Shown here: positions 7,301 to 64,000 of the stretch, one piece after another | Position numbering within the stretch: the stretch's first letter is position 1 | How the letters are laid out: each line of letters begins with the position of its first letter | Assembly: GCF_008831285.2 (NCBI RefSeq) | Contig: NC_045138.2 | Coordinates: forward strand, 14,086,571 to 14,150,570 | From: Nymphaea colorata | Lineage: Eukaryota; Streptophyta; Magnoliopsida; Nymphaeales; Nymphaeaceae | Length of the DNA: 64,000 nucleotides | Direction: 5' to 3' | The notes under the pieces: generated by a model | Told to the model about the DNA's origin: nothing | Database searches by the model: none | What the model saw: the letters and a program-made list of their open reading frames with translations, nothing else | Made by a program: the position numbers and the translations under genes

Positions 7301-7544
7301 TGATTTTGAGTTTTACAGATGAGTTGAAGTAAAACATATACTAAGTTGATCATTTGTTAGACTTTCATTGTGTCTTTATACTAAGAAAAAATAAACGGCC
7401 CCCAAAAAAATCAACATTTTCATTAAAACAACTTGGACAAAGCATGTTTGTTATCAAAATAGTCTTTATAAATATATTAAGATGTTTATATTGTATGTAA
7501 AATACTTTTAAACAATATATATATATATATATAGATACATATAT

Positions 7545-10230
<2,686 letters not shown>

Positions 10231-26539: not shown

Positions 26540-29500
26540 ATGTGTATGAAAGTGGCGGGAAAGCAGGATTCCGGAGAGGAATGGCTGAGAATCCCGGCCG
26601 GATGGGCTGACGAAGAGGCGGAGCAGTCGGAAGCGGTGGCGCCACGCATGTCGGCCTCCCATGGGGAGGAGATGCGCTTCCCTCTGTTCAACAGCGAGCA
26701 TGAGATGTCCCTGATGGTCTCCGCGCTCACCCGAGTCGTTTCCGGGGAGGTGCCACAGCGTGCGCCGCCCGATTGGTTCCCCCCTCGGTTCGGTACGGCG
26801 CCTACGGCCAGTGGAAGCTCAGTTTCCGGCTTGAAGCGCCAGCGAGAGGATCACCCGGTGATGTCGGAGCAATTAACTGTGCCGGTCCGGCAGTTCTCGG
26901 CTGAGGCGGAGGAGATAGGGAGCACTTCCTCGATTCCTGCGCAGTTCCTGCCTTCTTCTTCCTCCTCTCAAGGTAAGCAGTTGGATGGGAGAGTCACTTG
27001 CGATTTATGAACTCCCTTTCACTGGCTTGAAAAAAAAAAAGAAGGAAAGAAAGACCTACTGGTCTCTCTTCTCTTCTGGTGTTTGTTCCGCTTCTCCTAG
27101 CTCCTGGAGAAGAAAGAGGGCTCTACGGTCCTGACTTTCTCACACAAGGGCCTTTTGGTTGGTTAAGTTTAAGAAGATCTACTTCTTTTATGTTCTGCAA
27201 TGCATGGCTGACGATGGTACTGTAGAATCAGGTTGCATGTTGTAGACCAGGAACCAATGATCTGCATGATCTTGCCAATTAACTCATCTTCTTAGCGGCA
27301 TCTGGAAGCCATAATCGGCCAACCATGCTACCCCATAGATTTACATTGAGACTTTCTCCTTTAGATACTTTTTAGTTCATATGATTCATGGTGCCCGTTC
27401 AAATTCCTGCGTACAATTCTAAAGGATACGCACCAAGTTCAGGACGAATTAATGCGGTGTCCCTACCACCATTTGGAACCAAGTGTTTCCAGATGAGATA
27501 GGCTGCTGTTGGGTAGGCACCAAGGATCTACGTGGTCTCTTGCTCATAATTTATGTGCATCAACCAATCACATGGCCTGCATTTTCTGCCAGAAGATTTC
27601 CTCATGGAATGGAATGAATCTCCACTGGATTTGATGCTGCCATGTGACGGAGATTATTCACACACGTAAGAGATGAGTTAATAGAAGATATCAATGGATT
27701 TCCATGGTCCCCTGTGCTGCATCATCAACTTGCTTTCTATTACAAGAGACGTATGTCCTGAAAGTTGAAAAGCCTGGTTCTGTGTTTGTTACTTATATCC
27801 TAGACTTGGTTTCAAAGAGAAAGATGGTAAAATTTCTTCATCTAGAAACAAATGTATATCTTGATTCTTGCACGCTTTCGGTTACGTATTGACCTATCTT
27901 TCCAGTGATAAGGAGAGGTTATGTAGAGTTGAAATGAATGCCGGACCACAGATTTTCTCTGTATGCTCCGAGGAACCCAGACAGAAGGCACCTTCTGAGA
28001 GACCCCTGAGTTTGTTTCCCTCTCACAGAGGGATCCATTTGCCGCGCACAGTATTCGTTCTTGGACTGAAAGAGTCTGGCCTGCCTCTAGTATTGATTGC
28101 AGAAGCCGACCATCGATACGTCTCCTTCTGCAAGCCACAAAAAATTCTCTGCCTCTTCTCTCTTTCTCTCTCTCTCTCTCTCTCTTTTCCTACAGAACCT
28201 CTACCTAAAATCTGGCCAAGAAGCAATTGTCACGTCAAATCCCGAAAAAGCCACGCTTTTCCCAAACCTACCCACAGTTCTATCAATTCAGAACTCTGCT
28301 TAAAAGGCAATTAGATAGAGAAATCGTCCTCCTTTACCTAAAAAATCATTGATCTTAATCACCAACCATTGAGGTTGACTAGACTCGCCATTATTTCTCT
28401 TCATTCCTTTACGCCTGACGAGGCATCCTCTGATGTCACCACAGAAGATCTACGCTTACTGCTATACAATGGAAAGGAAGGGAGGCATCGAGCGAAGAAC
28501 TAGTTGCTAAGTTTGAAAATTCCGATGATTGTTCATAAGCTGCCAATCTTAGTTGTGTGGACTTTTTCTTCTTCTAGATCTGTCTCATTAATGCCGCCAC
28601 CATCATCATCCTGAACAGTTTAACTGGCCATTAATACTTGCAGATTTGTTCAAACTGCAATTAGAGCTCAATTTGTCCTCAAAGCCACGACTCTTTCAAA
28701 CGGAGATCGATCCATTGAAGATGATTGCATTCTCATATAAATTCCGTTCAAAATCCATCTTGATTAATTTTCAGTAGCTAATAGATTGCCCGCCGAGTCT
28801 CTGTAATTCGAAGTTAGATCTTTGGCTGTTTTTTTTTTTTCTAAAACCCATTGGTGTTCTTCCTTGTTATCATGTAAGGTTTTTGTGAGGAGAATTACTA
28901 ATGTGAAGTGTTTATTATGTCGATTGTCTGAAAATGCAGGGGAGGAAAGCACGAGGAGCACCACGAGCACAGAGGAAGCGACGGGCAGCGGCGGGGGAGT
29001 TGGAGAGCAGAGGAGGCGGTATAGAGGAGTAAGGCAGAGGCCATGGGGCAAGTGGGCCGCGGAGATCAGGGACCCCCACAAGGCCGCCCGCGTGTGGCTC
29101 GGGACATTCGACACTGCAGAGGCGGCCGCCCGCGCCTACGACGAGGCCGCTCTCCGCTTCCGTGGCAACCGCGCGAAGCTCAACTTCCCGGAGAACGTTC
29201 GCCTCCTCCGACCCCCTCAACCATCCTTTCCAGTCACCGCCGCCCCAACCACCACCGTCGTAGCCGCCGCTGCAGCGACACATTACCCCGTGGCACCCTC
29301 GAGATTAACCGACGACTACGTTCAGTACTTCCGGCTGCTCCAGAGCTCGGGGGTGCAGCCCCGTCCTCGGAGCCTCCTCGACCAGTACCTCTTCGCCACC
29401 ACCACCGGCGGGTCGAGTTCGACGTCCCCCGCCTCTGCTCCTCCTCGTCCCGGCAGTTCCGGTCCAACCAATGTCCCTCCAGCGCCGGAAGAGGACGTCC

Positions 29501-29547
29501 CGGCGACGTGGACGGGCGCTCCCTGGTTCCCTCCCAGCTCCAGTTAA
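26540..29547 (+). CDS. Group X (ABR1/ERF110-like) AP2/ERF transcription factor, two exons
   Basis: Nuclear DNA-binding regulator of the ERF family; group X members are known in stress, wounding and ABA/ethylene responses. Exon 1 is 26540-26972 and exon 2 is 28940-29547, joined by a GT-AG intron of 1967 bp. The split glycine codon keeps the frame, giving 346 residues. The AP2 domain is at 172-231: [20 protein letters not shown], then the conserved WLGTF, AARAYD and LNFPEN. The WAAEIRD segment carries the Ala/Asp pair typical of ERF rather than DREB proteins. Residues 54-70 ([17 protein letters not shown]) match the N-terminal motif of group X, whose genes also have an intron before the AP2 domain. 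The C-terminus is low-complexity Ser/Pro/Ala/Thr. The first ATG is used; a second lies two codons on. The exact orthologue is not certain. Confidence 0.94.
28162..28187. repeat. (CT)n tract in the ERF intron
   Basis: Uninterrupted CT dinucleotides within the 1967-bp intron. A simple repeat; no coding role. Confidence 0.9.
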
Positions 29548-29630
29548 CGCCGTCCTTTTGTATTTTTTTCTCTTTCTTTCCTTCCTTTGTCTTTTTCAGA
29601 AGGCTTTTTTTTTTCTTTTTTGTTACCGTT

Positions 29631-29928
29631 AAAAAGAAAGGGTTTGGAGTTGTCGACATGGAATTTAGTAGACGAATCTACCCTCATGTATCTTTTCTTA
29701 TTACTAAAATGGTGGATCGCTGTGCTGCGCCCTGGCACCATCAGGTGCATTTCTGCAATTTATACTCAAAACTTCGGCTAAAAAGAAATGTCTTGGAGTT
29801 GTCGACATAGAATTCACTAGACGAATCTACCCTCTCCTATATTTTTTTATTACGAAAATGGTGAATCGCTGTGCTGCGCCCTGGCACCATTAGGTGCATT
29901 TCTGCAATTTATACTCAAAACTACGGCT
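29631..29928 (+). repeat. 149-bp tandem duplication in the 3' flank of the ERF gene
   Basis: Two adjacent units (29631-29779 and 29780-29928), each running from AAAAAGAAA through GGAGTTGTCGACAT and GCTGTGCTGCGCCCTGG to ACTxCGGCT. They differ at scattered positions, so the duplication is not recent. It starts about 84 bp after the stop codon and may lie in, or extend, the 3' UTR. Confidence 0.92.
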
Positions 29929-29934
29929 AAAAAG

Positions 29935-42109: not shown

Positions 42110-43084
42110 CACACACACACACAGATCTGCTTACATGATATTATCCACTGATTAACATTTCAAATGCGCAACTCCATGGATTATAAATTCATGTTCCAGT
42201 TTCATGTATCTTTCAAACAAAACAAAAGGTCTAAAGTTCTTATTATAGTTAGTCGACAAGAAATCTTGGAACTCATCAACCTTGGCTTTCTAAGGGCACT
42301 TCTCTGTTAGCATATTTGTCAGGTAACAAAATATAAAATTACCTCCGATTAGAAATCGGAGGTAAACAAACACCTCTTGTAGGTTCTGCTCAAGAGCAAA
42401 AAGTACAACAAGCTTTTAACTGATACACGAAGTTCAGGGTAAGGAGATCTTACAATGATTGCTTGTCATAGAGGCAAGCCTATTTACTTGACTGAGGGCA
42501 TTTTTGATACGAAGAACATCGTGTTCTTATGATTTGGATTCTAGGAACACCCTACTTTTATTACAGGAAACATACATACTGTCATTATAGGTATTGTTCT
42601 AGATCTAACAATCAAACACTAGACATAAATTATTTGATACAAATGTTCCAATAATGTATGTTCTTAACAAACACCCTTTAGGTCACACATGCACGTGACA
42701 CATCCTGGTTGATGTTTTATGAACAAACACGGAAAAGTCAACCAAGTACACATGTATAGAGATCAGATCAGTGGCACAACTGAGTATAAGTTATGGCCTC
42801 CGAATTTTCAAAAAACTTTACATATACATACGAAAAGACCTTTTTGTCCTTCTTATTTTAAAGTTTCACACATATGTGCTCCATTTGTCATAAGTTGTTG
42901 ATGGTGATGCACATTTAATGCCCAACCAAGTTGGTGTCCCTTTTCCTTATAGGACACACGATCAAAGGCTTATTTGTTTAGGAACGAACCCCACCAAAAG
43001 TGTGTTGACCAAGGTCTGGACTCTTGGCTTTCTTCAACTTCAACGTCTTAATTTGACAACCACTTGCTTGTCGAAACAGATGTA
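42110..43084. other. Intergenic sequence left of the satellite array
   Basis: AT-rich, no supportable gene. It contains a perfect 11-bp inverted repeat with a 3-nt loop at 42340-42364 (TACCTCCGATT, AGA, AATCGGAGGTA) and two ACAAACACC motifs (about 42366 and 42668). From about 42930 it may already be sequence ancestral to the array. Confidence 0.45.
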
Positions 43085-46000
43085 GTCGAAAGTGGAAACA
43101 AATGTTTGTCAAAAAGATAAAGATTTCAATTTTAAATGTACGCATTGATTAAGTACAAAACCTTCAACACAAAATCTTCTAATAGAGACTTTGAAGGTAA
43201 TTTTCTTACATTGAGATGTCCAAATCTTTGATGCAAATGATTATATCAATCATTTTGACAACACTATATAAAATAGAGTTGGATAACATAAACTGTTCAT
43301 ATAATGGACATCACCATTTCCCAAATCATCCTTAATCAACCTCCTAATCCGTGACCCAAGACCTAACATTTATTTTGAAAGAAAACAACATCATAGCCAA
43401 AATACAGGATTTGTTAGATGTCAAAGTTAATCAGATCTGTATTTGGATGAATGACCAGATTTAGATCAGATCGTAGATCAGGTGCATTGGATGAAAGGTT
43501 GAGGTCAAACCTGATCCGGTTTAGACGTTGGATTTGGACTTTGAGATTGGCATATGGATCAGAAGTCTAACCTGACCTGGTTTAGATGTTGGATTTGAGT
43601 TCTAAGTCTTAGGTCAAGATCAAATGTCTAATCTGATCTGATTTAGATGTTAGATTTAGATTTTGGAAGTACCGCTTGGATCAGAGGTCTAATTTGATCG
43701 GTTTTAGGTGTTGGATTTGGATGTTGGATAAATGGACTAGATCAGAGGTCTAATCTGATCCAGTTTTGATTTTGGAGTGGGGAAACTTCTAATCATCCCA
43801 ATAAACAAGTTCAAAGGACATTATACAGAAAATGGATATCTACAAAAAATATAACGATTTCAATTTTCCATGTATGCATTCATTATATATGAAATCTTCA
43901 ACACAAGGTCTTTTAGTGGCAACATTAAAAATATATTTCCAACATTGAGATGTCCTAATCTTTGACACAGATATTTATATCAATCATCCTATCAACAATA
44001 TATAAGATATTGATGGATAAGATAAAATTTTGATATAACAAACATCTCCTTTTCTAAAACCATCCCTAATCAACTTCTCAGACCAGTGACCCTACGCCCA
44101 ACACTTGTTTGATGAGAAATCAACATAAAAAATACGATCAAATATTCAGCAAACATCAAAGTTAACCAGATAGGTGATTTTGAATAATTAGATTTAGATG
44201 TAATTGTAGATAAAGTACAAAGGGTCAGAGGTTTGATCCAGTGGGATATGGATCAGATGTTAGATTTCAACTTTGAAACTGGCTTATGGTTCAGAAGTCT
44301 AATCTGACCCAACTTAAATGTTGTATTTAAATTTTAAATATCATGTCAAGATAAGAGGTCTAATATGATCTAATTTGTAGGTTAGATTTAGATTTTAGAT
44401 CTATGGTTTAGATCAGAGGTCTCATCGGATCGGTACAAGGTGTGGGACTTACACTTTGGATCTATGGACAAAATCAAAGGTCTAACCTGATCAGGTTTAG
44501 ATGTTGGATTTGGAATTCATGCTGAGTCTAGATACATAATAGACATTTTTTCAGGATGTACGGTGGCTTATAATCATCCCAATCAACACGTTCAAAGGCC
44601 ATTGAAGTGAAAATGGATGTTTGTCAAAAAGATAAACATTTCAACTTGCCATTATGCATTTCCAAAATATGAAACCTTCAACACAAAATCCTTTAATTGA
44701 TGCATTGAAGACAATTTTCTTAACTCGGGGATCTCCTAACCTTTGGTACAAATGCTTATATCAATCATTTTGACAACACAATACAACATGCCGTTGGATA
44801 ACATAAATTGTTCATATAATAGAGATCTTCTTTCCCCAAACCATCCCTAATCAACTTCCTGGACCTATGATCCTAGACCTAACATTTATATGATGAGAAA
44901 CAAAATCACAGCCATAATCCAAGATTTGACAAACATCAAAGATAGTCAGATAGTTAGTTGGAAGAATCACAAGAATTAGATGTGATCGTAGCTCAAGTGG
45001 ATAGGATCAGAGGGGTTTCATCGAGTGAGATATGGATTAGGGGTCTAATCTGATCCGGTTTAAATGTAGAATTTGGACTTGGGCTGAGTCTGGATACATA
45101 ATCCACATTTTCTCATGATGTAGGGAGGCTTCTAATCATCCCAATGATTACCTTCAAAGGACAATGTAGTGGAAGCAGATGTTTGTCAAAAGATAAAGAT
45201 TTCAATTTTAAATGTATGCATTGATTAAGTATGAAACCTTCCAACACTAAATCTTCTAATAGAGACTTTGAAGGTAGTTTTGTTACATTGAGATGTCCTA
45301 ATCTTCGATGCAAATGATTCTTATCACCCATTTTGACAACATTATAATAACATAAATTGTTCATATAATGTGCATCTCCATTTCCAAATCCATCCCTAAT
45401 CAACCTCCTAGTTCGTGATCCCAGGCCTAAGATTTAATTTGAAAGAAAACAACATCTTAGCCACAATACATGATTTGTTAGACGACAAAGTTAATCAGAC
45501 ATGTATTTGGATGAATGACTAGAATTAGATCGGATCGTAGACCAGGTGGATTGGATCAAAGGTTTCATCAAGTGGGATATGGATCAGAGGTCAAACCTGA
45601 TCCGGTTTAGATGTTGGATTTGGACCTTGAGCTTGGCATCTAGATCAGAAGTCTAATCTGACCCGGTTTTGATGTTGGAATTGAGTTCTAAGTCCCACGT
45701 CAAGATCAGAGGTCTAATCTGATCTGATTTAGATGTTGGATTTAGATTTTGGAAGTACGGTTTGGAATTCATGCTGAGTCTAGATACATAATCGACATTT
45801 TTTCAGGATGTGCGGTGGCTCATAATCATCCCAATAAACACGTTCAAAGGACATTGAAGTGAAAATGGATGTTTGTCAAAAAGATCATCAAAGATTGTCA
45901 GAAAGTTAGTTGGAAGAATCAATAGAATTAGATGTGATCGTAGCTCAAGTGGATAGGATCAGAGGTTTCATCGAGTGAGAATGATTGGGTCAGATTTGAA

Positions 46001-46807
46001 CAACATGCCGTTGGATAACATAAATTGTTCATATAATAGAGATCTCCTTTTCCCAAACCATCCCTAATCAACTTCATGGACCTATGATCCTAGACCTAAC
46101 ATTTATATGATGAGAAAACAAGATCACGGCCACAATCCAAGATTTGACAAACATCAAAGATTGTCAGAAAGTTAGTTGGAAGAATCAATAGAATTAGATG
46201 TGATCGTAGCTCAAGTGGATAGGATCAGAGGTTTCATCGAGTGAGAATGATTTTGGAAGTACGGTTTGGAATTCATGCTGAGTCTAGATACATAATCGAC
46301 ATTTTTTCAGGATGTGCGGTGGCTTATAATCATCCCAATAAACACGTTCAAAGGACATTGAAGTGAAAATGGATGTTTGTCAAAAAGATAAACATTTCAA
46401 CTAGTCATTATGCATTTCCAAAATATGAAACCTTTAACACAAAATCTTTTAATTGAGGCATTGAAGACAATTTTCTTAACTCGGGATCTCCTAACCTTTA
46501 GTACAAATGCATATATCAATCATTTTGACAACACAATACAACATGCCGTTGGATAACATAAATTGTTCATATAATAGAGATCTCCTTTTCCCAAACCATC
46601 CCTAATCAACTTCATGGACCTATGATCCTAGACCTAACATTTATATGATGAGAAAACAAGATCACGGCCACAATCCAAGATTTGACAAACATCAAAGATT
46701 GTCAGAAAGTTAGTTGGAAGAATCAATAGAATTAGATGTGATCGTAGCTCAAGTGGATAGGATCAGAGGTTTCATTGAGTGAGAATGATTGGGTCAGATT
46801 TGATCCA
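43085..46807. repeat. Older, rearranged left edge of the satellite
   Basis: One diverged A-B-C set (B anchor 43786, C anchor 44567, then A at 45129; B-to-C spacing of 781 bp is the same as inside the homogeneous array). It is followed by A (45129) joined to two C-type pieces (anchors 45819 and 46323) with no B. C-type segments carry internal deletions and a duplicated stretch (about 45880-46250 against 46530-46790). This is the diverged border usual for satellite arrays. Confidence 0.9.
45113..45403 (-). pseudogene. Copia GAG-pre-integrase remnant within subunit A
   Basis: The minus strand reads RDGFGNGDAHYMNNLCYYN and then LHRRLGHLNVTKLPSKSLL. The LHxRLGHLN motif is diagnostic of the GAG-pre-integrase domain of Ty1/copia polyproteins, and the preceding part fits the region just upstream of it. 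The expected downstream Cys and Lys-His residues are degenerate, and the frame loses similarity after about 60 residues. It is the best-preserved of the repeated remnants and identifies the source of the satellite. Confidence 0.75.
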
Positions 46808-49800
46808 CTGAGTCTAGATACATAATCCACATTTTCTCATGATGTAGGGTGGCTTCTAATCATCCGAATGATCACCTTCAAAGAACAATGCAGTGCAAGC
46901 AGATGTTTCTCAAAAAGATAAAGATTTCAAGTTTAAATGTATAAATTGATTAGGTATGAAACCTTCCAACACTAAATCTTCTAATAGAGACTTTGAAGGT
47001 AATTTTCTTACATTGAGATGTGCTAATCTTCGATGCAAATGATTCTATCAATCATTCTGACAACACTAATAATAACATAAATTGTTCATATAATGGGCAT
47101 CTCCATTTCCCAAACCATCCCTAATCAACATCCTAGTTCGTGATCCCAGACGTAACATTTATTTTGAAAGAAAACAACATCTTAGCCACAATACATGATT
47201 TGTGAGATGTCAAAGTTAATAAACATGTATTTGGATGAATGAGCAGAATTAGATCGGATCGTAGATCAAGTGGATCGGATCAAAGGTTTCATCAAGTGGG
47301 ATATGGATCAGAGGTCAAACCTGATCCAGTTTAGATGTTGGATTTGGAACTTGAGCTTGGCATCTGGATCAGAAGTCTAATCTGACCCGGTTTAGATGTT
47401 GGACTTGAGTTCTAAGTCTCACGTCAAGATCAGAGGTCTAATCTGATCTGATTTAGATGTTGGATTTAGATTTTGGAAGTACGGTTTGGATCAAAGGTCT
47501 AATATGATTTGTTTTGGGTGTTGGATTTGGATGTTGGATCAATGGACTAGATCAGAGGTCTAATCTGATCCAGTGTTGAACGTTGGAGTGGGGTAACTTC
47601 TAATCATCCCAATAAACAAGTTCAAATGACATTATACAAAAAATGGATATCTATCAAAAATATAATGATTTCAATTTTCCATTTACGCATTTATTATATA
47701 TGAAATCTTCAACACAAGGTCTTTCAGTGGCAACATTAAAGATTATTTTCCAAAATTGAGATGTCCTAATCTTCGACGCAAATGTTTATATCAATCATCC
47801 TATCAACATTGTATAAGATATTGTTGGATAAGATAAAATTTTGATATAACAAACATCTCCTTTTCTAAAACAATCCCTAATCAACTTCTCAGACCAGTGA
47901 CCTTATGCCCTAGACTTCTTTGATGAGAAACCAATATAACAAATATGATCAAATATTAAGCAGACATAAAAGTTAATCGGATAGGTGATTTTTAATAATT
48001 AGATATAGATGTAATTGTAGATAAAGTAAATTGGGTCAGAGGTTTGATCAAGTAGGATATGGATCAGATGTTAAATTTCAACTTTGAAACTGGGTTATGG
48101 TTAAGAAGTCTAATCTGACCCAACTTAAATGTCATATTTGAATTTTAAATCTCATGTGAAGATCAAAGGTCTAATCTGATCAACTTTGTAGGTTAGATTT
48201 AGATTTTAGATCTATGGTTTGGATCAGAGGTCTCATCTGATCGGTACAAGGTGTGAGATTTAGACTTTGGATCCATGGACTAGATCAGAGGTCTAACCTG
48301 ATCTTGTTTAGATGTTGGATTTGGAATTCATGCCGAGTCTAGATACATAATCGACATTTTTTCAGGATGTACGGTGGCTTATAATCATCCCAATAAAAAC
48401 GTTCAAAGGACATTGAAGTGAAAATGGATGTTTGTCAAAAAGATAAAGATTTCAACTTGTCATTATGCATTTCCAAAATATGAAACATTCAACACAAAAT
48501 CTTTTAATTGAGGCATTGATGACAATTTTCTTAACTCGGGATCTCCTAACCTTTGGTACAAATGCTTATATCAATCATTTTCACAACACAATACAACATG
48601 CCGTTGGATAACATAAAATGTTCCTATAATAGAGCTCTCCTTTTCCCAAACCATCCCTAATCAACTTCCTAGACCTATGATCCAAGACCTAACATTTATA
48701 TGATGAGAAAACAAGAATACAACCATAATCCAAGATTTGACAAACATCAAAGATAGTCAGATAGTTAGTTGGAAGAATCAATAGAATTAGATGTGATCGT
48801 AGCTCAAGTGGATAGGATCAGAGGTTTCATCGAGTGAGATATGGATCAGAGGTCTAATCTGATCTGGTTTAAATGTTGGATTTGGACTTTTGCTGAGTCT
48901 AGATACATAATCCACATTTTCTCATGATGTAGGGTGGCTTCTAATCACCCGAATGATCACCTTCAAAGAACAATGCAGTGCAAGCAGATGTTTCTCAAAA
49001 AGATAAAGATTTCAAGTTTAAATGTATAAATTGATTAGGTATGAAACCTTCCAACACTAAATCTTCTAATAGAGACTTTGAAGGTAATTTTCTTACATTG
49101 AGATGTGCTAATCTTCGATGCAAATGATTCTATCAATCATTCTGACAACACTAATAATAACATAAATTGTTCATATAATGGGCATCTCCATTTCCCAAAC
49201 CATCCCTAATCAACATCCTAGTTCGTGATCCCAGACGTAACATTTATTTTGAAAGAAAACAACATCTTAGCCACAATACATGATTTGTGAGATGTCAAAG
49301 TTAATAAACATGTATTTGGATGAATGAGCAGAATTAGATCGGATCGTAGATCAAGTGGATCGGATCAAAGGTTTCATCAAGTGGGATATGGATCAGAGGT
49401 CAAACCTGATCCAGTTTAGATGTTGGATTTGGAACTTGAGCTTGGCATCTGGATCAGAAGTCTAATCTGACCCGGTTTAGATGTTGGACTTGAGTTCTAA
49501 GTCTCACGTCAAGATCAGAGGTCTAATCTGATCTGATTTAGATGTTGGATTTAGATTTTGGAAGTACGGTTTGGATCAAAGGTCTAATATGATCTGTTTT
49601 GGGTGTTGGATTTGGATGTTGGATCAATGGACTAGATCAGAGGTCTAATCTGATCCAGTGTTGAACGTTGGAGTGGGGTAACTTCTAATCATCCCAATAA
49701 ACAAGTTCAAATGACATTATACAAAAAATGGATATCTATCAAAAATATAATGATTTCAATTTTCCATTTACGCATTTATTATATATGAAATCTTCAACAC

Positions 49801-52800
49801 AAGGTCTTTCAGTGGCAACATTAAAGATTATTTTCCAAAATTGAGATGTCCTAATCTTCGACGCAAATGTTTATATCAATCATCCTATCAACATTGTATA
49901 AGATATTGTTGGATAAGATAAAATTTTGATATAACAAACATCTCCTTTTCTAAAACAATCCCTAATCAACTTCTCAGACCAGTGACCTTATGCCCTAGAC
50001 TTCTTTGATGAGAAACCAATATAACAAATATGATCAAATATTAAGCAGACATAAAAGTTAATCGGATAGGTGATTTTTAATAATTAGATATAGATGTAAT
50101 TGTAGATAAAGTAAATTGGGTCAGAGGTTTGATCAAGTAGGATATGGATCAGATGTTAAATTTCAACTTTGAAACTGGGTTATGGTTAAGAAGTCTAATC
50201 TGACCCAACTTAAATGTCATATTTGAATTTTAAATCTCATGTGAAGATCAAAGGTCTAATCTGATCAACTTTGTAGGTTAGATTTAGATTTTAGATCTAT
50301 GGTTTGGATCAGAGGTCTCATCTGATCGGTACAAGGTGTGAGATTTAGACTTTGGATCCATGGACTAGATCAGAGGTCTAACCTGATCTTGTTTAGATGT
50401 TGGATTTGGAATTCATGCCGAGTCTAGATACATAATCGACATTTTTTCAGGATGTACGGTGGCTTATAATCATCCCAATAAAAACGTTCAAAGGACATTG
50501 AAGTGAAAATGGATGTTTGTCAAAAAGATAAAGATTTCAACTTGTCATTATGCATTTCCAAAATATGAAACATTCAACACAAAATCTTTTAATTGAGGCA
50601 TTGATGACAATTTTCTTAACTCGGGATCTCCTAACCTTTGGTACAAATGCTTATATCAATCATTTTCACAACACAATACAACATGCCGTTGGATAACATA
50701 AAATGTTCCTATAATAGAGCTCTCCTTTTCCCAAACCATCCCTAATCAACTTCCTAGACCTATGATCCAAGACCTAACATTTATATGATGAGAAAACAAG
50801 AACACAACCATAATCCAAGATTTGACAAACATCAAAGATAGTCAGATAGTTAGTTGGAAGAATCAATAGAATTAGATGTGATCGTAGCTCAAGTGGATAG
50901 GATCAGAGGTTTCATCGAGTGAGATATGGATCAGAGGTCTAATCTGATCTGGTTTAAATGTTGGATTTGGACTTTTGCTGAGTCTAGATACATAATCCAC
51001 ATTTTCTCATGATGTAGGGTGGCTTCTAATCATCCGAATGATCACCTTCAAAGAACAATGCAGTGCAAGCAGATGTTTCTCAAAAAGATAAAGATTTCAA
51101 GTTTAAATGTATAAATTGATTAGGTATGAAACCTTCCAACACTAAATCTTCTAATAGAGACTTTGAAGGTAATTTTCTTACATTGAGATGTGCTAATCTT
51201 CGATGCAAATGATTCTATCAATCATTCTGACAACACTAATAATAACATAAATTGTTCATATAATGGGCATCTCCATTTCCCAAACCATCCCTAATCAACA
51301 TCCTAGTTCGTGATCCCAGACGTAACATTTATTTTGAAAGAAAACAACATCTTAGCCACAATACATGATTTGTGAGATGTCAAAGTTAATAAACATGTAT
51401 TTGGATGAATGAGCAGAATTAGATCGGATCGTAGATCAAGTGGATCGGATCAAAGGTTTCATCAAGTGGGATATGGATCAGAGGTCAAACCTGATCCAGT
51501 TTAGATGTTGGATTTGGAACTTGAGCTTGGCATCTGGATCAGAAGTCTAATCTGACCCGGTTTAGATGTTGGACTTGAGTTCTAAGTCTCACGTCAAGAT
51601 CAGAGGTCTAATCTGATCTGATTTAGATGTTGGATTTAGATTTTGGAAGTACGGTTTGGATCAAAGGTCTAATATGATCTGTTTTGGGTGTTGGATTTGG
51701 ATGTTGGATCAATGGACTAGATCAGAGGTCTAATCTGATCCAGTGTTGAACGTTGGAGTGGGGTAACTTCTAATCATCCCAATAAACAAGTTCAAATGAC
51801 ATTATACAAAAAATGGATATCTATCAAAAATATAATGATTTCAATTTTCCATTTACGCATTTATTATATATGAAATCTTCAACACAAGGTCTTTCAGTGG
51901 CAACATTAAAGATTATTTTCCAAAATTGAGATGTCCTAATCTTCGACGCAAATGTTTATATCAATCATCCTATCAACATTGTATAAGATATTGTTGGATA
52001 AGATAAAATTTTGATATAACAAACATCTCCTTTTCTAAAACAATCCCTAATCAACTTCTCAGACCAGTGACCTTATGCCCTAGACTTCTTTGATGAGAAA
52101 CCAATATAACAAATATGATCAAATATTAAGCAGACATAAAAGTTAATCGGATAGGTGATTTTTAATAATTAGATATAGATGTAATTGTAGATAAAGTAAA
52201 TTGGGTCAGAGGTTTGATCAAGTAGGATATGGATCAGATGTTAAATTTCAACTTTGAAACTGGGTTATGGTTAAGAAGTCTAATCTGACCCAACTTAAAT
52301 GTCATATTTGAATTTTAAATCTCATGTGAAGATCAAAGGTCTAATCTGATCAACTTTGTAGGTTAGATTTAGATTTTAGATCTATGGTTTGGATCAGAGG
52401 TCTCATCTGATCGGTACAAGGTGTGAGATTTAGACTTTGGATCCATGGACTAGATCAGAGGTCTAACCTGATCTTGTTTAGATGTTGGATTTGGAATTCA
52501 TGCCGAGTCTAGATACATAATCGACATTTTTTCAGGATGTACGGTGGCTTATAATCATCCCAATAAAAACGTTCAAAGGACATTGAAGTGAAAATGGATG
52601 TTTGTCAAAAAGATAAAGATTTCAACTTGTCATTATGCATTTCCAAAATATGAAACATTCAACACAAAATCTTTTAATTGAGGCATTGATGACAATTTTC
52701 TTAACTCGGGATCTCCTAACCTTTGGTACAAATGCTTATATCAATCATTTTCACAACACAATACAACATGCCGTTGGATAACATAAAATGTTCCTATAAT

Positions 52801-55800
52801 AGAGCTCTCCTTTTCCCAAACCATCCCTAATCAACTTCCTAGACCTATGATCCAAGACCTAACATTTATATGATGAGAAAACAAGAACACAACCATAATC
52901 CAAGATTTGACAAACATCAAAGATAGTCAGATAGTTAGTTGGAAGAATCAATAGAATTAGATGTGATCGTAGCTCAAGTGGATAGGATCAGAGGTTTCAT
53001 CGAGTGAGATATGGATCAGAGGTCTAATCTGATCTGGTTTAAATGTTGGATTTGGACTTTTGCTGAGTCTAGATACATAATCCACATTTTCTCATGATGT
53101 AGGGTGGCTTCTAATCATCCGAATGATCACCTTCAAAGAACAATGCAGTGCAAGCAGATGTTTCTCAAAAAGATAAAGATTTCAAGTTTAAATGTATAAA
53201 TTGATTAGGTATGAAACCTTCCAACACTAAATCTTCTAATAGAGACTTTGAAGGTAATTTTCTTACATTGAGATGTGCTAATCTTCGATGCAAATGATTC
53301 TATCAATCATTCTGACAACACTAATAATAACATAAATTGTTCATATAATGGGCATCTCCATTTCCCAAACCATCCCTAATCAACATCCTAGTTCGTGATC
53401 CCAGACGTAACATTTATTTTGAAAGAAAACAACATCTTAGCCACAATACATGATTTGTGAGATGTCAAAGTTAATAAACATGTATTTGGATGAATGAGCA
53501 GAATTAGATCGGATCGTAGATCAAGTGGATCGGATCAAAGGTTTCATCAAGTGGGATATGGATCAGAGGTCAAACCTGATCCAGTTTAGATGTTGGATTT
53601 GGAACTTGAGCTTGGCATCTGGATCAGAAGTCTAATCTGACCCGGTTTAGATGTTGGACTTGAGTTCTAAGTCTCACGTCAAGATCAGAGGTCTAATCTG
53701 ATCTGATTTAGATGTTGGATTTAGATTTTGGAAGTACGGTTTGGATCAAAGGTCTAATATGATCTGTTTTGGGTGTTGGATTTGGATGTTGGATCAATGG
53801 ACTAGATCAGAGGTCTAATCTGATCCAGTGTTGAACGTTGGAGTGGGGTAACTTCTAATCATCCCAATAAACAAGTTCAAATGACATTATACAAAAAATG
53901 GATATCTATCAAAAATATAATGATTTCAATTTTCCATTTACGCATTTATTATATATGAAATCTTCAACACAAGGTCTTTCAGTGGCAACATTAAAGATTA
54001 TTTTCCAAAATTGAGATGTCCTAATCTTCGACGCAAATGTTTATATCAATCATCCTATCAACATTGTATAAGATATTGTTGGATAAGATAAAATTTTGAT
54101 ATAACAAACATCTCCTTTTCTAAAACAATCCCTAATCAACTTCTCAGACCAGTGACCTTATGCCCTAGACTTCTTTGATGAGAAACCAATATAACAAATA
54201 TGATCAAATATTAAGCAGACATAAAAGTTAATCGGATAGGTGATTTTTAATAATTAGATATAGATGTAATTGTAGATAAAGTAAATTGGGTCAGAGGTTT
54301 GATCAAGTAGGATATGGATCAGATGTTAAATTTCAACTTTGAAACTGGGTTATGGTTAAGAAGTCTAATCTGACCCAACTTAAATGTCATATTTGAATTT
54401 TAAATCTCATGTGAAGATCAAAGGTCTAATCTGATCAACTTTGTAGGTTAGATTTAGATTTTAGATCTATGGTTTGGATCAGAGGTCTCATCTGATCGGT
54501 ACAAGGTGTGAGATTTAGACTTTGGATCCATGGACTAGATCAGAGGTCTAACCTGATCTTGTTTAGATGTTGGATTTGGAATTCATGCCGAGTCTAGATA
54601 CATAATCGACATTTTTTCAGGATGTACGGTGGCTTATAATCATCCCAATAAAAACGTTCAAAGGACATTGAAGTGAAAATGGATGTTTGTCAAAAAGATA
54701 AAGATTTCAACTTGTCATTATGCATTTCCAAAATATGAAACATTCAACACAAAATCTTTTAATTGAGGCATTGATGACAATTTTCTTAACTCGGGATCTC
54801 CTAACCTTTGGTACAAATGCTTATATCAATCATTTTCACAACACAATACAACATGCCGTTGGATAACATAAAATGTTCCTATAATAGAGCTCTCCTTTTC
54901 CCAAACCATCCCTAATCAACTTCCTAGACCTATGATCCAAGACCTAACATTTATATGATGAGAAAACAAGAACACAACCATAATCCAAGATTTGACAAAC
55001 ATCAAAGATAGTCAGATAGTTAGTTGGAAGAATCAATAGAATTAGATGTGATCGTAGCTCAAGTGGATAGGATCAGAGGTTTCATCGAGTGAGATATGGA
55101 TCAGAGGTCTAATCTGATCTGGTTTAAATGTTGGATTTGGACTTTTGCTGAGTCTAGATACATAATCCACATTTTCTCATGATGTAGGGTGGCTTCTAAT
55201 CATCCGAATGATCACCTTCAAAGAACAATGCAGTGCAAGCAGATGTTTCTCAAAAAGATAAAGATTTCAAGTTTAAATGTATAAATTGATTAGGTATGAA
55301 ACCTTCCAACACTAAATCTTCTAATAGAGACTTTGAAGGTAATTTTCTTACATTGAGATGTGCTAATCTTCGATGCAAATGATTCTATCAATCATTCTGA
55401 CAACACTAATAATAACATAAATTGTTCATATAATGGGCATCTCCATTTCCCAAACCATCCCTAATCAACATCCTAGTTCGTGATCCCAGACGTAACATTT
55501 ATTTTGAAAGAAAACAACATCTTAGCCACAATACATGATTTGTGAGATGTCAAAGTTAATAAACATGTATTTGGATGAATGAGCAGAATTAGATCGGATC
55601 GTAGATCAAGTGGATCGGATCAAAGGTTTCATCAAGTGGGATATGGATCAGAGGTCAAACCTGATCCAGTTTAGATGTTGGATTTGGAACTTGAGCTTGG
55701 CATCTGGATCAGAAGTCTAATCTGACCCGGTTTAGATGTTGGACTTGAGTTCTAAGTCTCACGTCAAGATCAGAGGTCTAATCTGATCTGATTTAGATGT

Positions 55801-57985
55801 TGGATTTAGATTTTGGAAGTACGGTTTGGATCAAAGGTCTAATATGATCTGTTTTGGGTGTTGGATTTGGATGTTGGATCAATGGACTAGATCAGAGGTC
55901 TAATCTGATCCAGTGTTGAACGTTGGAGTGGGGTAACTTCTAATCATCCCAATAAACAAGTTCAAATGACATTATACAAAAAATGGATATCTATCAAAAA
56001 TATAATGATTTCAATTTTCCATTTACGCATTTATTATATATGAAATCTTCAACACAAGGTCTTTCAGTGGCAACATTAAAGATTATTTTCCAAAATTGAG
56101 ATGTCCTAATCTTCGACGCAAATGTTTATATCAATCATCCTATCAACATTGTATAAGATATTGTTGGATAAGATAAAATTTTGATATAACAAACATCTCC
56201 TTTTCTAAAACAATCCCTAATCAACTTCTCAGACCAGTGACCTTATGCCCTAGACTTCTTTGATGAGAAACCAATATAACAAATATGATCAAATATTAAG
56301 CAGACATAAAAGTTAATCGGATAGGTGATTTTTAATAATTAGATATAGATGTAATTGTAGATAAAGTAAATTGGGTCAGAGGTTTGATCAAGTAGGATAT
56401 GGATCAGATGTTAAATTTCAACTTTGAAACTGGGTTATGGTTAAGAAGTCTAATCTGACCCAACTTAAATGTCATATTTGAATTTTAAATCTCATGTGAA
56501 GATCAAAGGTCTAATCTGATCAACTTTGTAGGTTAGATTTAGATTTTAGATCTATGGTTTGGATCAGAGGTCTCATCTGATCGGTACAAGGTGTGAGATT
56601 TAGACTTTGGATCCATGGACTAGATCAGAGGTCTAACCTGATCTTGTTTAGATGTTGGATTTGGAATTCATGCCGAGTCTAGATACATAATCGACATTTT
56701 TTCAGGATGTACGGTGGCTTATAATCATCCCAATAAAAACGTTCAAAGGACATTGAAGTGAAAATGGATGTTTGTCAAAAAGATAAAGATTTCAACTTGT
56801 CATTATGCATTTCCAAAATATGAAACATTCAACACAAAATCTTTTAATTGAGGCATTGATGACAATTTTCTTAACTCGGGATCTCCTAACCTTTGGTACA
56901 AATGCTTATATCAATCATTTTCACAACACAATACAACATGCCGTTGGATAACATAAAATGTTCCTATAATAGAGCTCTCCTTTTCCCAAACCATCCCTAA
57001 TCAACTTCCTAGACCTATGATCCAAGACCTAACATTTATATGATGAGAAAACAAGAACACAACCATAATCCAAGATTTGACAAACATCAAAGATAGTCAG
57101 ATAGTTAGTTGGAAGAATCAATAGAATTAGATGTGATCGTAGCTCAAGTGGATAGGATCAGAGGTTTCATCGAGTGAGATATGGATCAGAGGTCTAATCT
57201 GATCTGGTTTAAATGTTGGATTTGGACTTTTGCTGAGTCTAGATACATAATCCACATTTTCTCATGATGTAGGGTGGCTTCTAATCATCCGAATGATCAC
57301 CTTCAAAGAACAATGCAGTGCAAGCAGATGTTTCTCAAAAAGATAAAGATTTCAAGTTTAAATGTATAAATTGATTAGGTATGAAATCTTCCAACACTAA
57401 ATCTTCTAATAGAGACTTTGAAGGTAATTTTCTTACATTGAGATGTGCTAATCTTCGATGCAAATGATTCTATCAATCATTCTGACAACACTAATAATAA
57501 CATAAATTGTTCATATAATGGGCATCTCCATTTCCCAAACCATCCCTAATCAACATCCTAGTCCGTGATCCCAGACGTAACATTTATTTTGAAAGAAAAC
57601 AACATCTTAGCCACAATACATGATTTGTGAGATGTCAAAGTTAATAAACATGTATTTGGATGAATGAGCAGAATTAGATCGGATCGTAGATCAAGTGGAT
57701 CGGATCAAAGGTTTCATCAAGTGGGATATGGATCAGAGGTCAAACCTGATCCAGTTTAGATGTTGGATTTGGAACTTGAGCTTGGCATCTGGATCAGAAG
57801 TCTAATCTGACCCGGTTTAGATGTTGGACTTGAGTTCTAAGTCTCACGTCAAGATCAGAGGTCTAATCTGATCTGATTTAGATGTTGGATTTAGATTTTG
57901 GAAGTACGGTTTGGATCAAAGGTCTAATATGATCGGTTTTGGGTGTTGGATTTGGATGTTGGATCAATGGACTAGATCAGAGGTC
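46808..57985. repeat. Homogeneous 2085-bp higher-order repeat, about 5.4 copies
   Basis: The period is exactly 2085 bp: the motif CTTGGCATCTGGATCAGAAG recurs at 47356, 49441, 51526, 53611, 55696 and 57781. Each unit is A (744 bp), B (781 bp) and C (560 bp); A anchors are 46853, 48938, 51023, 53108, 55193 and 57278. The copies differ at only a handful of bases that I could spot, for example 47510, 48948, 48717, 57387 and 57563. The left border is at about 46808, where identity with the next unit starts; the right border is about 57985. Confidence 0.97.
47306..47610. repeat. 61-bp minisatellite block in subunit A (type example)
   Basis: Five units start at 47306, 47367, 47428, 47489 and 47550, a strict 61-bp period. 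The consensus begins GATCAGAGGTCTAA, continues TCTGATC, then GGTTTAGATGTTGGATTTGG. The start has an inverted pair, GATCAGA and TCTGATC, separated by 7 nt. The same 61-bp spacing recurs in subunit B (48100, 48161, 48222, 48283) and in the diverged left copy (43557, 43618, 43679, 43740), so it predates the larger units. Confidence 0.93.
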
Positions 57986-57988
57986 ATA

Positions 57989-58740
57989 TTTCATCAAGTG
58001 GCACATGGATCAGAGGTCAAACCTGATCCGGTTTAGATGTTGGATTTTGACCTTGAGCTTGGCATCTAGATCAGAAGCCAAATATGACCCGGTTTAGATG
58101 TTGGGTTTGAGTTCTAAGTCTCAAGTCAAGATCAGAGGTCTAATCTGATCTGATTTAGATGTTGGATTTAGATTTGTCAGATGTCAAAGTCAATCAAACA
58201 TGTATTTGGATGAATGACTAGAATTAGATCGGATCGTAGATCAGGTGGATTGGATCAAAGGTTTCATCAAGTGGCACATGGATCAGAGGTCAAACCTGAT
58301 CCGGTTTAGATGTTGGATTTTGACCTTGAGCTTGGCATCTAGATCAGAAGTCGAATATGACCCGGTTTAGATGTTGGGTTTGAGTTCTAAGTCTCAGGTC
58401 AAGATCAGAGGTCTAATCTGATCTGATTTAGATGTTGGATTTAGATTTGTCAGATGTCAAAGTCAATCAAACATGTATTTGGATGAATGACTAGAATTCG
58501 ATCGGATCGTAGATCAGGTGGATTGGATCAAAGGTTTCATCAAGTGGCACATGGATCAGATGTCAAACCTGATCCGGTTTAGATGTTGGATTTTGACCTT
58601 GAGCTTGGCATCTAGATCAGAAGTCGAATATGACCCGGTTTAGATGTTGGGTTTGAGTTCTAAGTCTCAGGTCAAGATCAGAGGTCTAATCTGATCTGAT
58701 TTAGATGTTGGATTTAGATTTTGGAAGTACGGTTAGGATC
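57989..58740. repeat. 273-bp segmental triplication between the two arrays
   Basis: Units begin TTTCATCAAGTGGCACATGG at 57989, 58262 and 58535, exactly 273 bp apart. Each contains part of the subunit A minisatellite tail plus the TTTGTCAGATGTCAAAGTCA segment. The third unit passes directly into the 1919-bp array. This marks the junction between the 2085-bp and 1919-bp families. Confidence 0.95.
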
Positions 58741-61700
58741 AGAGGTCTAATCTGATCAGTTTTAGACGTTGGATTTGGATGTTGGATCAATGGACTAGTT
58801 CAGAGGTCTAATCTGATTCGGTTTTGACATTGGAGTGGGGTAACTTCTAGTCCTACTCTTTGATGCAAATGTTTATGTCAATCATCCTATCAACACTATA
58901 TAAGATATCGTTGGATAAGATAAAATTTTGATATAACAAACATCTCCTTTTCTAAAACCATTCCTAATCAACTTCTCATACCAGTGACCTTACGCCCAAC
59001 ACTTGTTCGATGAGAAATCAATATAACAAATATGATCAAATATTCAGCAAACATCAAAGTTAACCAGATAGGTGATTTTGAATAATTAGTTTTAGATGTA
59101 ACCGTAGATAAAGTACATAGGGTCAGAGGTTTGATCTAGTGGGATATGGATCAGATGTGAGATTTCAACTTTGAAACCGGCTTATGGCTCAGAAGTCTAA
59201 TCTGACCCAACGTAAATGTTGCATTTGAATTTTAAATCTCATGTCAAGATCAGAGGTCTAATCTGATCTAAGTTGTAGGTTAGATTTAGAATTTAGATCT
59301 ATGGTTTGGATCAGAGGTCTCACCTGATCGGTACAAGGTGTGGGATTTAGACTTTGGATCCATGGACTAGATCAGAGGTCTAACCTGATCTTGTTTAGAT
59401 GTTGGATTTGGAATTCATGCCGAGTCTAGATACATAATCGACATTTTTTCAGGATGTACGGTGGCTTATAATCATCCCAATAAAAACGTTCAAAGGACAT
59501 TGAAGTGAAAATGGATGTTTGTCAAAAAGATAAAGATTTCAACTTGTCATTATGCATTTCCAAAATATGAAACCTTCAACACAAAATCTTTTAATTGAGG
59601 CATTGAAGACAATTTTCTTAACTCGGGATCTCCTAACCTTTGGTACAAATGCTTATATCAATCATTTTGACAACACAATACAACATGCCGTTGGATAACA
59701 TAAATTGTCCATATAATAGAGATCTCCTTTTCCCAAACCATCCCTCATCAACTTCATGGACCTATGCTCCTAGACCTAACATTTATATGATGAGAAAACA
59801 AAATCAAAGACATAATCCAAGATTTGACAAACATCAAAGATAGTCAGATAGTTAGTTGGAAGAATCGCCAGAATTAGAAGTGATCGTAGCTCAAGTGGAT
59901 AGGATAAGAGGTTCCATCGAGCGACATATGGATCAGAGGTCTAATCTGATCCGGTTTCAATGTTGGATTTGGACTTGGGCAGAGTCTAAATACATAATCC
60001 ACATTTTCTCATGATGTAGGGAGGCTTCTAATCATCCCAATGATCACCTTCAAAGGACAATGTAGTGGAAGCAGACGTTTGTCAAAAAGATAAAGGTTTC
60101 AACTTTAAATGTATGGATTGATTAAGTATGAAACCTTCCAACACTAGATCTTCTAGTACAGACTTTGAAGGTAATTTTCTTACATTGAGATGTCCTAATC
60201 TTCGATGCAAATGATTATATCACTCATTTTGACAACACTATAATAACATAAATTGTTCATATAATCTGCCATTTCCCAAACCGTCCCTAAACAACCTCCT
60301 AGTTCGTGATCCCAGACCTAAGATTTATTTTGAAACAAAACAACATCTTAGCCACAATACATGATTTGTCAGATGTCAAAGTCAATCAGACATGTATTTG
60401 GATGAATGACTAGAATCAGATCGGATCGTAGATCAGGTGGATTGGATCAAAGGTTTCATCAAGGGGCACATGGATCAGAGGTCAAACCTGATCCGGTTTA
60501 GATGTTGGATTTTGACCTTGAGCTTGGCATCTAGATCAGAAGTCTAATATGACCCGGTTTAGATGTTTGGTTTGAGTTCTAAGTCTCAGGTCAAGATCAG
60601 AGGTCTAATCTGATCTGATTTAGATGTTGGATTTAGATTTTGGAAGTACGGTTTGGACAAAAGGTCTAATCTGATCAGTTTTAGACGTTGGATTTGGATG
60701 TTGGATCAATGGACTAGATCAGAGGTCTAATCTGATTCGGTTTTGACATTGGAGTGGGGTAACTTCTAGTCCTACTCTTTGATGCAAATGTTTATGTCAA
60801 TCATCCTATCAACACTATATAAGATATCGTTGGATGAGATAAAATTTTGATATAACAAACATCTCCTTTTCTAAAACCATTCCTAATCAACTTCTCATAC
60901 CAGTGACCTTACGCCCAACACTTGTTCGATGAGAAATCAATATAACAAATATGATCAAATATTCAGCAAACATCAAAGTTAACCAGATAGGTGATTTTGA
61001 ATAATTAGTTTTAGATGTAACCGTAGATAAAGTACATAGGGTCAGAGGTTTGATCTAGTGGGATATGGATCAGATGTGAGATTTCAACTTTGAAACCGGC
61101 TTATGGCTCAGAAGTTTAATCTAACCCAACGTAAATGTTGCATTTGAATTTTAAATCTCATGTCAAGATCAGAGGTCTAATCTGATCTAAGTTGTAGGTT
61201 AGATTTAGAATTTAGATCTATGGTTTGGATCAGAGGTCTCATCTGATCGGTACAAGGTGTGAGATTTAGACTTTGGATCCATGGACTAGATCAGAGGTCT
61301 AACCTGATCTTGTTTAGATGTTGGATTTGGAATTCATGCCGAGTCTAGATACATAATCGACATTTTTTCAGGATGTACGGTGGCTTATAATCATCCCAAT
61401 AAAAACGTTCAAAGGACATTGAAGTGAAAATGGATGTTTGTCAAAAAGATAAAGATTTCAACTTGTCATTATGCATTTCCAAAATATGAAACCTTCAACA
61501 CAAAATCTTTTAATTGAGGCATTGAAGACAATTTTCTTAACTCGGGATCTCCTAACCTTTGGTACAAATGCTTATATCAATCATTTTGACAACACAATAC
61601 AACATGCCGTTGGATAACATAAATTGTCCATATAATAGAGATCTCCTTTTCCCAAACCATCCCTCATCAACTTCCTGGACCTATGATCCTAGACCTAACA

Positions 61701-64000
61701 TTTATATGATGAGAAAACAAAATCAAAGCCATAATCCAAGATTTGACAAACATCAAAGATAGTCACATAGTTAGTTGGAAGAATCACCAGAATTAGAAGT
61801 GATCGTAGCTCAAGTGGATAGGATAAGAGGTTCCATCGAGCGACATATGGATTAGAGGTCTAATCTGATTCGGTTTCAATGTGGGATTTGGACTTGGGCT
61901 GAGTCTAAATACATAATCCACATTTTCTCATGATGTAGGGAGGCTTCTAATCATCCCAATGATCACCTTCAAAGGACAATGTAGTGGAAGCAGACGTTTG
62001 TCAAAAAGATAAAGGCTTCAACTTTAAATGTATGGATTGATTAAGTATGAAACCTTCCAACACTAGATCTTCTAGTACAGACTTTGAAGGTAATTTTCTT
62101 ACATTGAGATGTCCTAATCTTCGATGACAATGATTATATCACTCATTTTGACAACACTATAATAACATAAATTGTTCATATAATCTGCCATTTCCCAAAT
62201 CGTCCCTAAACAACCTCCTAGTTCGTGATCCCAGACCTAAGATTTATTTTGAAACAAAACAACATCTTAGCCACAATACATGATTTGTCAGATGTCAAAG
62301 TCAATCAGACATGTTTTTGGATGAATGACTAGAATCAGATCGGATCGTAGATCAGGTGGATTGGATCAAAGGTTTCATCAAGGGGCACATGGATCAGAGG
62401 TCAAACCTGATCCGGTTTAGATGTTGGATTTTGACCTTGAGCTTGGCATCTAAATCAGAAGTCTAATATGACCCGGTTTAGATGTTTGGTTTGAGTTCTA
62501 AGTCTCAGGTCAAGATCAGAGGTCTAATCTGATCTGATTTAGATGTTGGATTTAGATTTTGGAAGTACGGTTTGGACAAAAGGTCTAATCTGATCAGTTT
62601 TAGACGTTGGATTTGGATGTTGGATCAATGGACTAGATCAGAGGTCTAATCTGATTCGGTTTTGACATTGGAGTGGGGTAACTTCTAGTCCTACTCTTTG
62701 ATGCAAATGTTTATGTCAATCATCCTATCAACACTATATAAGATATCGTTGGATGAGATAAAATTTTGATATAACAAACATCTCCTTTTCTAAAACCATT
62801 CCTATTCAACTTCTCATACCAGTGACCTTACGCCCAACACTTGTTCGATGAGAAATCAATATAACAAATATGATCAAATATTCAGCAAACATCAAAGTTA
62901 ACCAGATAGGTGATTTTGAATAATTAGTTTTAGATGTAACCGTAGATAAAGTACATAGGGTCAGAGGTTTGATCTAGTGGGATATGGATCAGATGTGAGA
63001 TTTCAACTTTGAAACCGGCTTATGGCTCAGAAGTTTAGTCTAACCCAACGTAAATGTTGCATTTGAATTTTAAATCTCATGTCAAGATCAGAGGTCTAAT
63101 CTGATCTAAGTTGTAGGTTAGATTTAGAATTTAGATCTATGGTTTGGATCAGAGGTCTCACCTGATCGGTACAAGGTGTGGGATTTAGACTTTGGATCCA
63201 TGGACTAGATCAGAGGTCTAACCTGATCTTGTTTAGATGTTGGATTTGGAATTCATGCCGAGTCTAGATACATAATCGACATTTTTTCAGGATGTACGGT
63301 GGCTTATAATCATCCCAATAAAAACGTTCAAAGGACATTGAAGTGAAAATGGATGTTTGTCAAAAAGATAAAGATTTCAACTTGTCATTATGCATTTCCA
63401 AAATATGAAACCTTCAACACAAAATCTTTTAATTGAGGCATTGAAGACAATTTTCTTAACTCGGGATCTCCTAACCTTTGGTACAAATGCTTATATCAAT
63501 CATTTTGACAACACAATACAACATGCCGTTGGATAACATAAATTGTCCATATAATAGAGATCTCCTTTTCCCAAACCATCCCTCATCAACTTCCTGGACC
63601 TATGATCCTAGACCTAACATTTATATGATGAGAAAACAAAATCAAAGCCATAATCCAAGATTTGACAAACATCAAAGATAGTCACATAGTTAGTTGGAAG
63701 AATCACCAGAATTAGAAGTGATCGTAGCTCAAGTGGATAGGATAAGAGGTTCCATCGAGCGACATATGGATTAGAGGTCTAATCTGATTCGGTTTCAATG
63801 TGGGATTTGGACTTGGGCTGAGTCTAAATACATAATCCACATTTTCTCATGATGTAGGGAGGCTTCTAATCATCCCAATGATCACCTTCAAAGGACAATG
63901 TAGTGGAAGCAGACGTTTGTCAAAAAGATAAAGGCTTCAAGTTTAAATGTATGGATTGATTAAGTATGAAACCTTCCAACACTAGATCTTCTAGTACAGA
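58445..64000. repeat. 1919-bp higher-order repeat, about 2.9 copies, continuing past the window
   Basis: The period is exactly 1919 bp: B anchors 58844, 60763, 62682; C anchors 59465, 61384, 63303; A anchors 60025, 61944, 63863. Subunit lengths are B 621, C 560 and A 738. Compared with the 2085-bp unit, B has lost 160 bp (the part with the copia-like motif) and A has lost 6 bp. Copies are nearly but not fully identical. A 67-codon frame recurs at 59640, 61559 and 63478 as a by-product of the period and is not a gene. Confidence 0.97.

Follow-up and report, generated by a model that had tools for sequence, protein, structure and literature searches.

A 46.2-kb satellite array of Nymphaea colorata (C1:14129655-14175861) joins a 61-bp minisatellite to antisense Ty1/copia sequence and is one member of a genome-wide repeat family. 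We consider it probable that an old minisatellite captured the copia piece a single time, that the composite then spread and that higher-order repeat (HOR) units were subsequently born locally, yielding a non-coding composite satellite. Since ten loci of a single genome share this composite monomer and their HORs have reached different stages (a trimer on C1, a dimer on three contigs), the order of capture, spread and HOR birth can be read directly from the sequence, away from any centromere.

A three-level satellite on contig C1

The window, i.e. the whole stretch of DNA that was analysed (64,000 nucleotides), corresponds to C1:14086571-14150570, and the genome searched comprised 407.77 Mb in 783 contigs. 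From position 43085 onward, the window consists of a satellite with three levels, in which 61-bp units are assembled into monomers and monomers into HOR units. Its main features are as follows (window coordinates, strand).

43085..64000, +, whole satellite array within the window, which extends to about 89291 in window coordinates
43091..46810, +, left part, which is diverged and rearranged; about 90.7% identity to the 2085-bp units in the best long matches, segments both complete and partial
45116..45433, -, 106-aa open frame, the longest of the array, within a copia segment; used as genome query
46792..58014, +, run of the 2085-bp HOR, about 5.4 copies; lag-2085 run 46792-55929 at 99.6%
47763..49847, +, single complete 2085-bp HOR unit; anchor-to-anchor monomers of 780, 562 and 743 bp
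48905..49383, -, copia segment, matched in pieces to residues 120-230 and 95-126 of a 333-residue copia piece, E 1.4e-15; profile positions 2-464 of 471
49391..49656, +, 61-bp block given as an example, with cores at 49391, 49452, 49513, 49574 and 49635
57622..58721, +, transition from one HOR type to the other, in which a 273-bp unit is repeated about four times (TRF: period 273, 4.0 copies, 87% matches)
58432..64000, +, run of the 1919-bp HOR, about 2.9 copies, 98.3-99%

The sequence-only reading of this DNA had described three nested repeat levels (61 bp, subunits and 2085/1919-bp units) in a higher-order satellite architecture, and both descriptions were borne out. A self-comparison of positions 43001-64000 gave lag peaks at 2085 (0.619), its multiples 4170, 6255 and 8340, 1919 (0.408) and 61 (0.361), compared to a best lag of 0.289 in three shuffles of 43085-64000. 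Monomer anchors were spaced 780, 562 and 743 bp apart in the 2085-bp unit and 780, 562 and 577 bp apart in the 1919-bp unit. At the lowest level, 118 sites within six mismatches of GATCAGAGGTCTAATCTGATC were found in the window, none of them before position 43000. The hallmarks of an HOR were present, i.e. divergent monomers within a unit (types roughly 73-79% alike by BLAST) and near-identical units, with three C1 monomer-type clades (each 100/100) common to the units of the array. Complete neighbouring 2085-bp units (47763/49848, 49848/51933 and 51933/54018) differed at 2, 0 and 0 of 2085 sites, and the 1919-bp units at 58850 and 60769 at 20 of 1919 sites. Because only 0-2 differences separate the 2085-bp units, their homogenisation is very recent, although their near-identity could partly be an assembly effect. 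The 273-bp zone (57622-58721) marks the switch between the 2085-bp and the 1919-bp HOR types.

The array had been taken to end at 64000; this was incorrect, as its right end lies at about window coordinate 89291 (C1:14175861). To the right of 64000, the period shifts to about 2083-2086 bp, and a block within this outer part of the array (window coordinates 71864-73956) is inverted. A 4.1-kb inverted repeat (98%) within the array, likewise outside the window, was observed at window coordinates 71864-75958.

Antisense copia sequence in the monomers

The monomers carry antisense Ty1/copia sequence. A Pfam scan at E <= 10 detected no family in the 106-aa open frame or in five of the six frames of one HOR unit, and the copia relationship was therefore tested via the genome's own elements. 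In a tblastn search of the same genome, for which 150 of 485 candidates were scored, the 106-aa frame matched open frames of up to 1446 aa (E 1e-15 to 1e-13); among these were a frame of 1433 aa (1.4e-14, 48%) and a group of 1446 aa each (3.7e-13, 45%). A 1-kb copia piece of the 1433-aa frame contained Pol_BBD (1.7e-19), rve (3.5e-13) and gag_pre-integrs (8e-12) by Pfam. Against the window, this piece gave 44 HSPs at E <= 10, all of them antisense, while 20 shuffles and the reversed array used as a control gave two matches (best E 0.075). All 26 window segments reaching at least 75% of the profile length were matched (E 2.9e-8 to 1e-16), confirming the antisense copia sequence that had been proposed for the subunits; five short or cut segments (45786, 45886, 58170, 58443 and 63830) lacked a match to the copia piece.

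In the opposite direction, a profile of the satellite segments found the copia piece at 1.7e-67. At the DNA level, the segments were 63-70% identical to the 1-kb copia piece over roughly 350-390 columns, whereas 30 shuffled segments averaged 56% and did not exceed 60%. The segments are thus homologous to copia coding sequence, even though Pfam applied directly to the decayed copies gave no match. The earlier description of a satellite built from a copia fragment holds in that the copia piece is real, but it covers half of the picture, since the piece alternates with a 61-bp repeat that is also arrayed without copia.

Members of the family elsewhere in the genome

The 21-bp core of the 61-bp unit occurred at 4402 sites genome-wide with up to three mismatches (1897 + 2505), compared to one site for the reversed pattern. 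Among the matches listed, on which the partial map of loci rests, core sites were located on C1, C2, C3, C4, C5, C7, C8, C9, C10, C12, C13 and small contigs. Copia segments between 61-bp units were found at ten loci on eight contigs (two each on C1 and C10, one each on C2, C4, C7, C8, C12 and C13) and also on the unplaced contig C657, with segments up to 99% like those of C12. The core spacings or HOR periods were as follows.

C1:14.1 Mb, 2085/1919 bp
C1:17.4 Mb, about 880 bp
C1:36.2 Mb, 1965 bp
C2:19.3 Mb, 1406 bp
C3:17.2 Mb, about 593 bp
C4:25.1 Mb, 1421-1431 bp
C9, 367 and 173 bp
C10:17.1 Mb, about 890 bp
C10:19.6 Mb, 1417-1435 bp

HOR periods were locus-specific, with the exception of a dimer common to C2, C4 and C10 (1406-1435 bp). 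At E <= 10, the copia piece had no match in the examined stretches of C5, C10:16.1 Mb, C3, C1:35.7 Mb and C1:37.28 Mb; the DNA profile of the segments gave one match in C1:37.28 Mb. A related satellite on C9 (C9:13794301-13795700) has a monomer of about 173 bp with two cores, 61 and 111-112 bp apart. In the arrays C12:14508001-14516000, 14554001-14563000 and 14586001-14595000 and C657:24001-33000, cores are mostly 57 bp apart, and a second spacer is 36-45% like the copia segments in one alignment, with no visible relation.

Proposed capture, spread and local birth of HORs

The junctions of the composite were uniform where they could be compared. Across the examined array loci, 177 of 178 HSPs (E <= 1e-3) were confined to residues 80-240 of the query (333 residues); the remaining one, in C12b, covered residues 2-70. 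Among the 174 HSPs with a set core strand, which exclude four C13 HSPs, 172 were antisense to the core; the remaining two are on C1 beyond the window, where the plus-strand matches fall in the inverted block at 71864-73956. In eight rows (C1, C7 and C10), the profile began 63-68 bp from the last core. For the phylogenetic analysis, 150 profile matches were reduced to 110 of sufficient length and, after removal of rows more than 96% alike, to 43; C12 rows are absent, having been lost to the 75% length filter. The C1 segments formed one clade (15 rows, 100/99) comprising three type clades (3, 5 and 7 rows, each 100/100), and the C1 trimer would therefore have arisen after monomers had reached C1. 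Segments of C2, C4 and C10 formed another clade (14 rows, 100/100), consisting of two type clades (7 rows, 100/98; 7 rows, 100/97); each of these holds all three contigs, and the dimer would therefore predate its sharing by them. The loci C1:17.4 Mb and C10:17.1 Mb grouped with C7 (100/100).

We propose that an old 61-bp minisatellite took up, probably in a single event, about 150 codons of a Ty1/copia pol gene in antisense orientation, spanning the end of Pol_BBD, gag_pre-integrs and the start of the integrase. The unit of 61-bp repeats plus copia piece would then have dispersed to many places, by whatever route, and multiplied there in tandem, while the number of 61-bp repeats beside each copia piece kept changing. 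Unequal exchange or a similar process would have built and homogenised a separate HOR unit at each locus, the outcomes being the trimer (2085/1919 bp) on C1 and the dimer (1406-1435 bp) common to C2, C4 and C10. Unequal exchange is established for tandem repeats and is the most likely motor of this local multiplication and homogenisation.

This history was weighed against two other origins of the composite. If 61-bp arrays had captured this copia region independently more than once, this would fit the abundance of copia copies in the genome, and in the tree the living copia piece is placed among the satellite segments, beside C13, with weak support (86/67), because of which a second capture or a long-branch effect is possible. 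However, the shared ends, the shared orientation at the loci where the core strand could be set and the equal distance between core and copia piece in C1, C7 and C10 speak against repeated capture, which we regard as unlikely. An alternative explanation, which we rate slightly lower still, is that the composite was born inside a retrotransposon, i.e. that copia elements carrying 61-bp repeats seeded the arrays as the 3'UTR repeats of Ogre elements do. Seeding would account for the many places, and the copia family is well represented in the same genome, with long open frames, but the captured piece is internal coding sequence antisense to the core instead of 3'UTR, no core with up to six mismatches was found in two 1-kb copia pieces (1 kb examined per element), and several loci have 61-bp repeats without copia. 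Single capture followed by spread remains our preferred history, although the second spacer and the 57-bp core spacing of C12 count against it.

Relation to known satellites

Alpha-satellite HORs combine divergent monomers within a unit, near-identical units and locus-specific HORs, and the C1 array resembles them in all three respects. It differs from alpha satellite in its monomers of 562-780 bp, which contain a transposable element (TE) piece and a variable 61-bp block, and in that a centromere role is unsupported. As described in the accessible part of a study of Lathyrus sativus, Ogre-derived satellites stem from 3'UTR tandem repeats of Ty3/gypsy Ogre elements, some families have higher-order periods and FabTR-58 arrays are interlaced with Ogre at fixed intervals (PMC7004042). 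The Nymphaea repeat is likewise a plant satellite that traces to LTR retrotransposon sequence; unlike the Ogre satellites as presented there, it contains internal antisense Ty1/copia coding sequence, and its tandem repeat is a separate 61-bp unit. The Ogre-type origin outside the coding region is absent here, as the segment matches gag_pre-integrs and its neighbours.

According to the accessible part of a recent review, composite satellite monomers can arise from "TE graveyards", and satellites can also develop from the gag or pol regions of LTR elements (PMC12628747). Our composite similarly places a decayed TE stretch and other sequence in one monomer. In contrast to the type outlined in that part of the review, with several short stretches of various TEs, it combines a minisatellite with a single long stretch from one element, and it is repeated at ten loci with junctions that are identical where checked (PMC12628747). 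TE-derived satellites, composite satellites and HORs are known kinds. The suggestion that the repeat may be undescribed was not contradicted, as searches of an open-access library gave no description of this repeat. What appears new by the same measure is that an antisense copia coding piece is joined, at ten loci, to a 61-bp minisatellite, the HORs being specific to each locus apart from a common dimer.

Uneven conservation within the 61-bp unit

Among 313 distinct units from 13 loci, the mean deviation from the majority letter was 0.15 in the core, 0.15 in the block that follows it and 0.42 in the linker; within loci, the values were 0.165, 0.158 and 0.355, respectively. Core conservation is partly favoured by the method because the choice of units leans on the core, by which the seed units were found, while the second block is not favoured in this way. 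Decay of CpG was considered as a cause of the variable linker and proved insufficient, since A/T columns also vary more in the linker (0.377) than in the core (0.115). The neutral account proposed above leaves the uneven conservation unexplained, which counts against it; the pattern may reflect either a bound motif or the structure of old subfamilies. By analogy with the CENP-B box, the 21-bp core with its 7-bp inverted arms, together with TTTAGATGTTGGATT, can be viewed as a putative protein-binding element and the arrays as dispersed binding platforms, a reading to which we give little credence. It would imply that the conserved part stays constant whereas the linker, the spacing (41 to more than 100 bp), the copia piece and the HOR differ between loci. 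Spacings observed between cores include 41, 49, 55, 57 and 61 bp. As to whether compensatory change maintains the inverted arms, these contained 43 compensatory cells compared to 24.3 expected from column make-up, counted over 313 units that are related to each other, and the excess in these related units was confined to pairs 1, 4 and 6, with none in the other four pairs. Inside C1, there were no compensatory cells (1.2 expected). If the core does bind a protein, the family would serve as a natural experiment on how a satellite motif is held constant.

Genomic setting and the centromere question

The array lies between genes, with an AP2/ERF gene located about 13.5 kb away on the left.

28807..29544, +, flanking AP2/ERF ORF (Pfam PF00847, 2.7e-15)

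On the right, a kinase ORF (window coordinates 97466-98209, 6.4e-42) is located about 8 kb away. A weak RRM match left of the array (E 2.5e-4) was slightly above the cut-off. Within the window, an Rfam scan gave no matches at gathering scores and ARAGORN found no genes. The CpG observed/expected ratio was 0.41-0.46 in the array, 0.56-0.85 to its left and 0.49 in the first 5 kb to its right, then 0.65; as an indirect indication, the depletion in the array fits methylated repeat DNA.

In favour of a centromeric or pericentromeric satellite serving as a kinetochore platform, the array shares trimeric HOR units, divergent monomers and near-identical copies with alpha satellite, and the related C9 array has cores about 173 bp apart, near nucleosome length. 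The array measures merely 46 kb, however, with the AP2/ERF and kinase ORFs within about 14 kb, and C1 has at least five separate related sites (14.1, 17.4, 23.6, 35.7, 36.2 and 37.3 Mb), which renders a centromeric role very improbable. Instead of a long gene-free array at one main site per chromosome, we found 46 kb of satellite, nearby genes and several sites per contig. The location proposed earlier, near a centromere or in another heterochromatic block, is likewise unsupported as far as a centromere or a large block is concerned, the array being a 46-kb island between genes with related arrays at several places per contig. Overall, neither a coding nor a centromere role is supported, and the satellite probably lacks a function.

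Several smaller repeats were noted in the flanks. The stretch that adjoins the left edge of the array (window 42756-43074) recurs at 86% to its right (window coordinates 93374-93711), and two more short stretches of the left flank recur on the right with their order kept. A 46-bp repeat is present three times at window 41425-41563, and an AT dinucleotide run of 81 copies at window 7515-7677. A 149-bp sequence duplicated in tandem (90%) occupies window 29630-29934, directly downstream of the AP2/ERF ORF.
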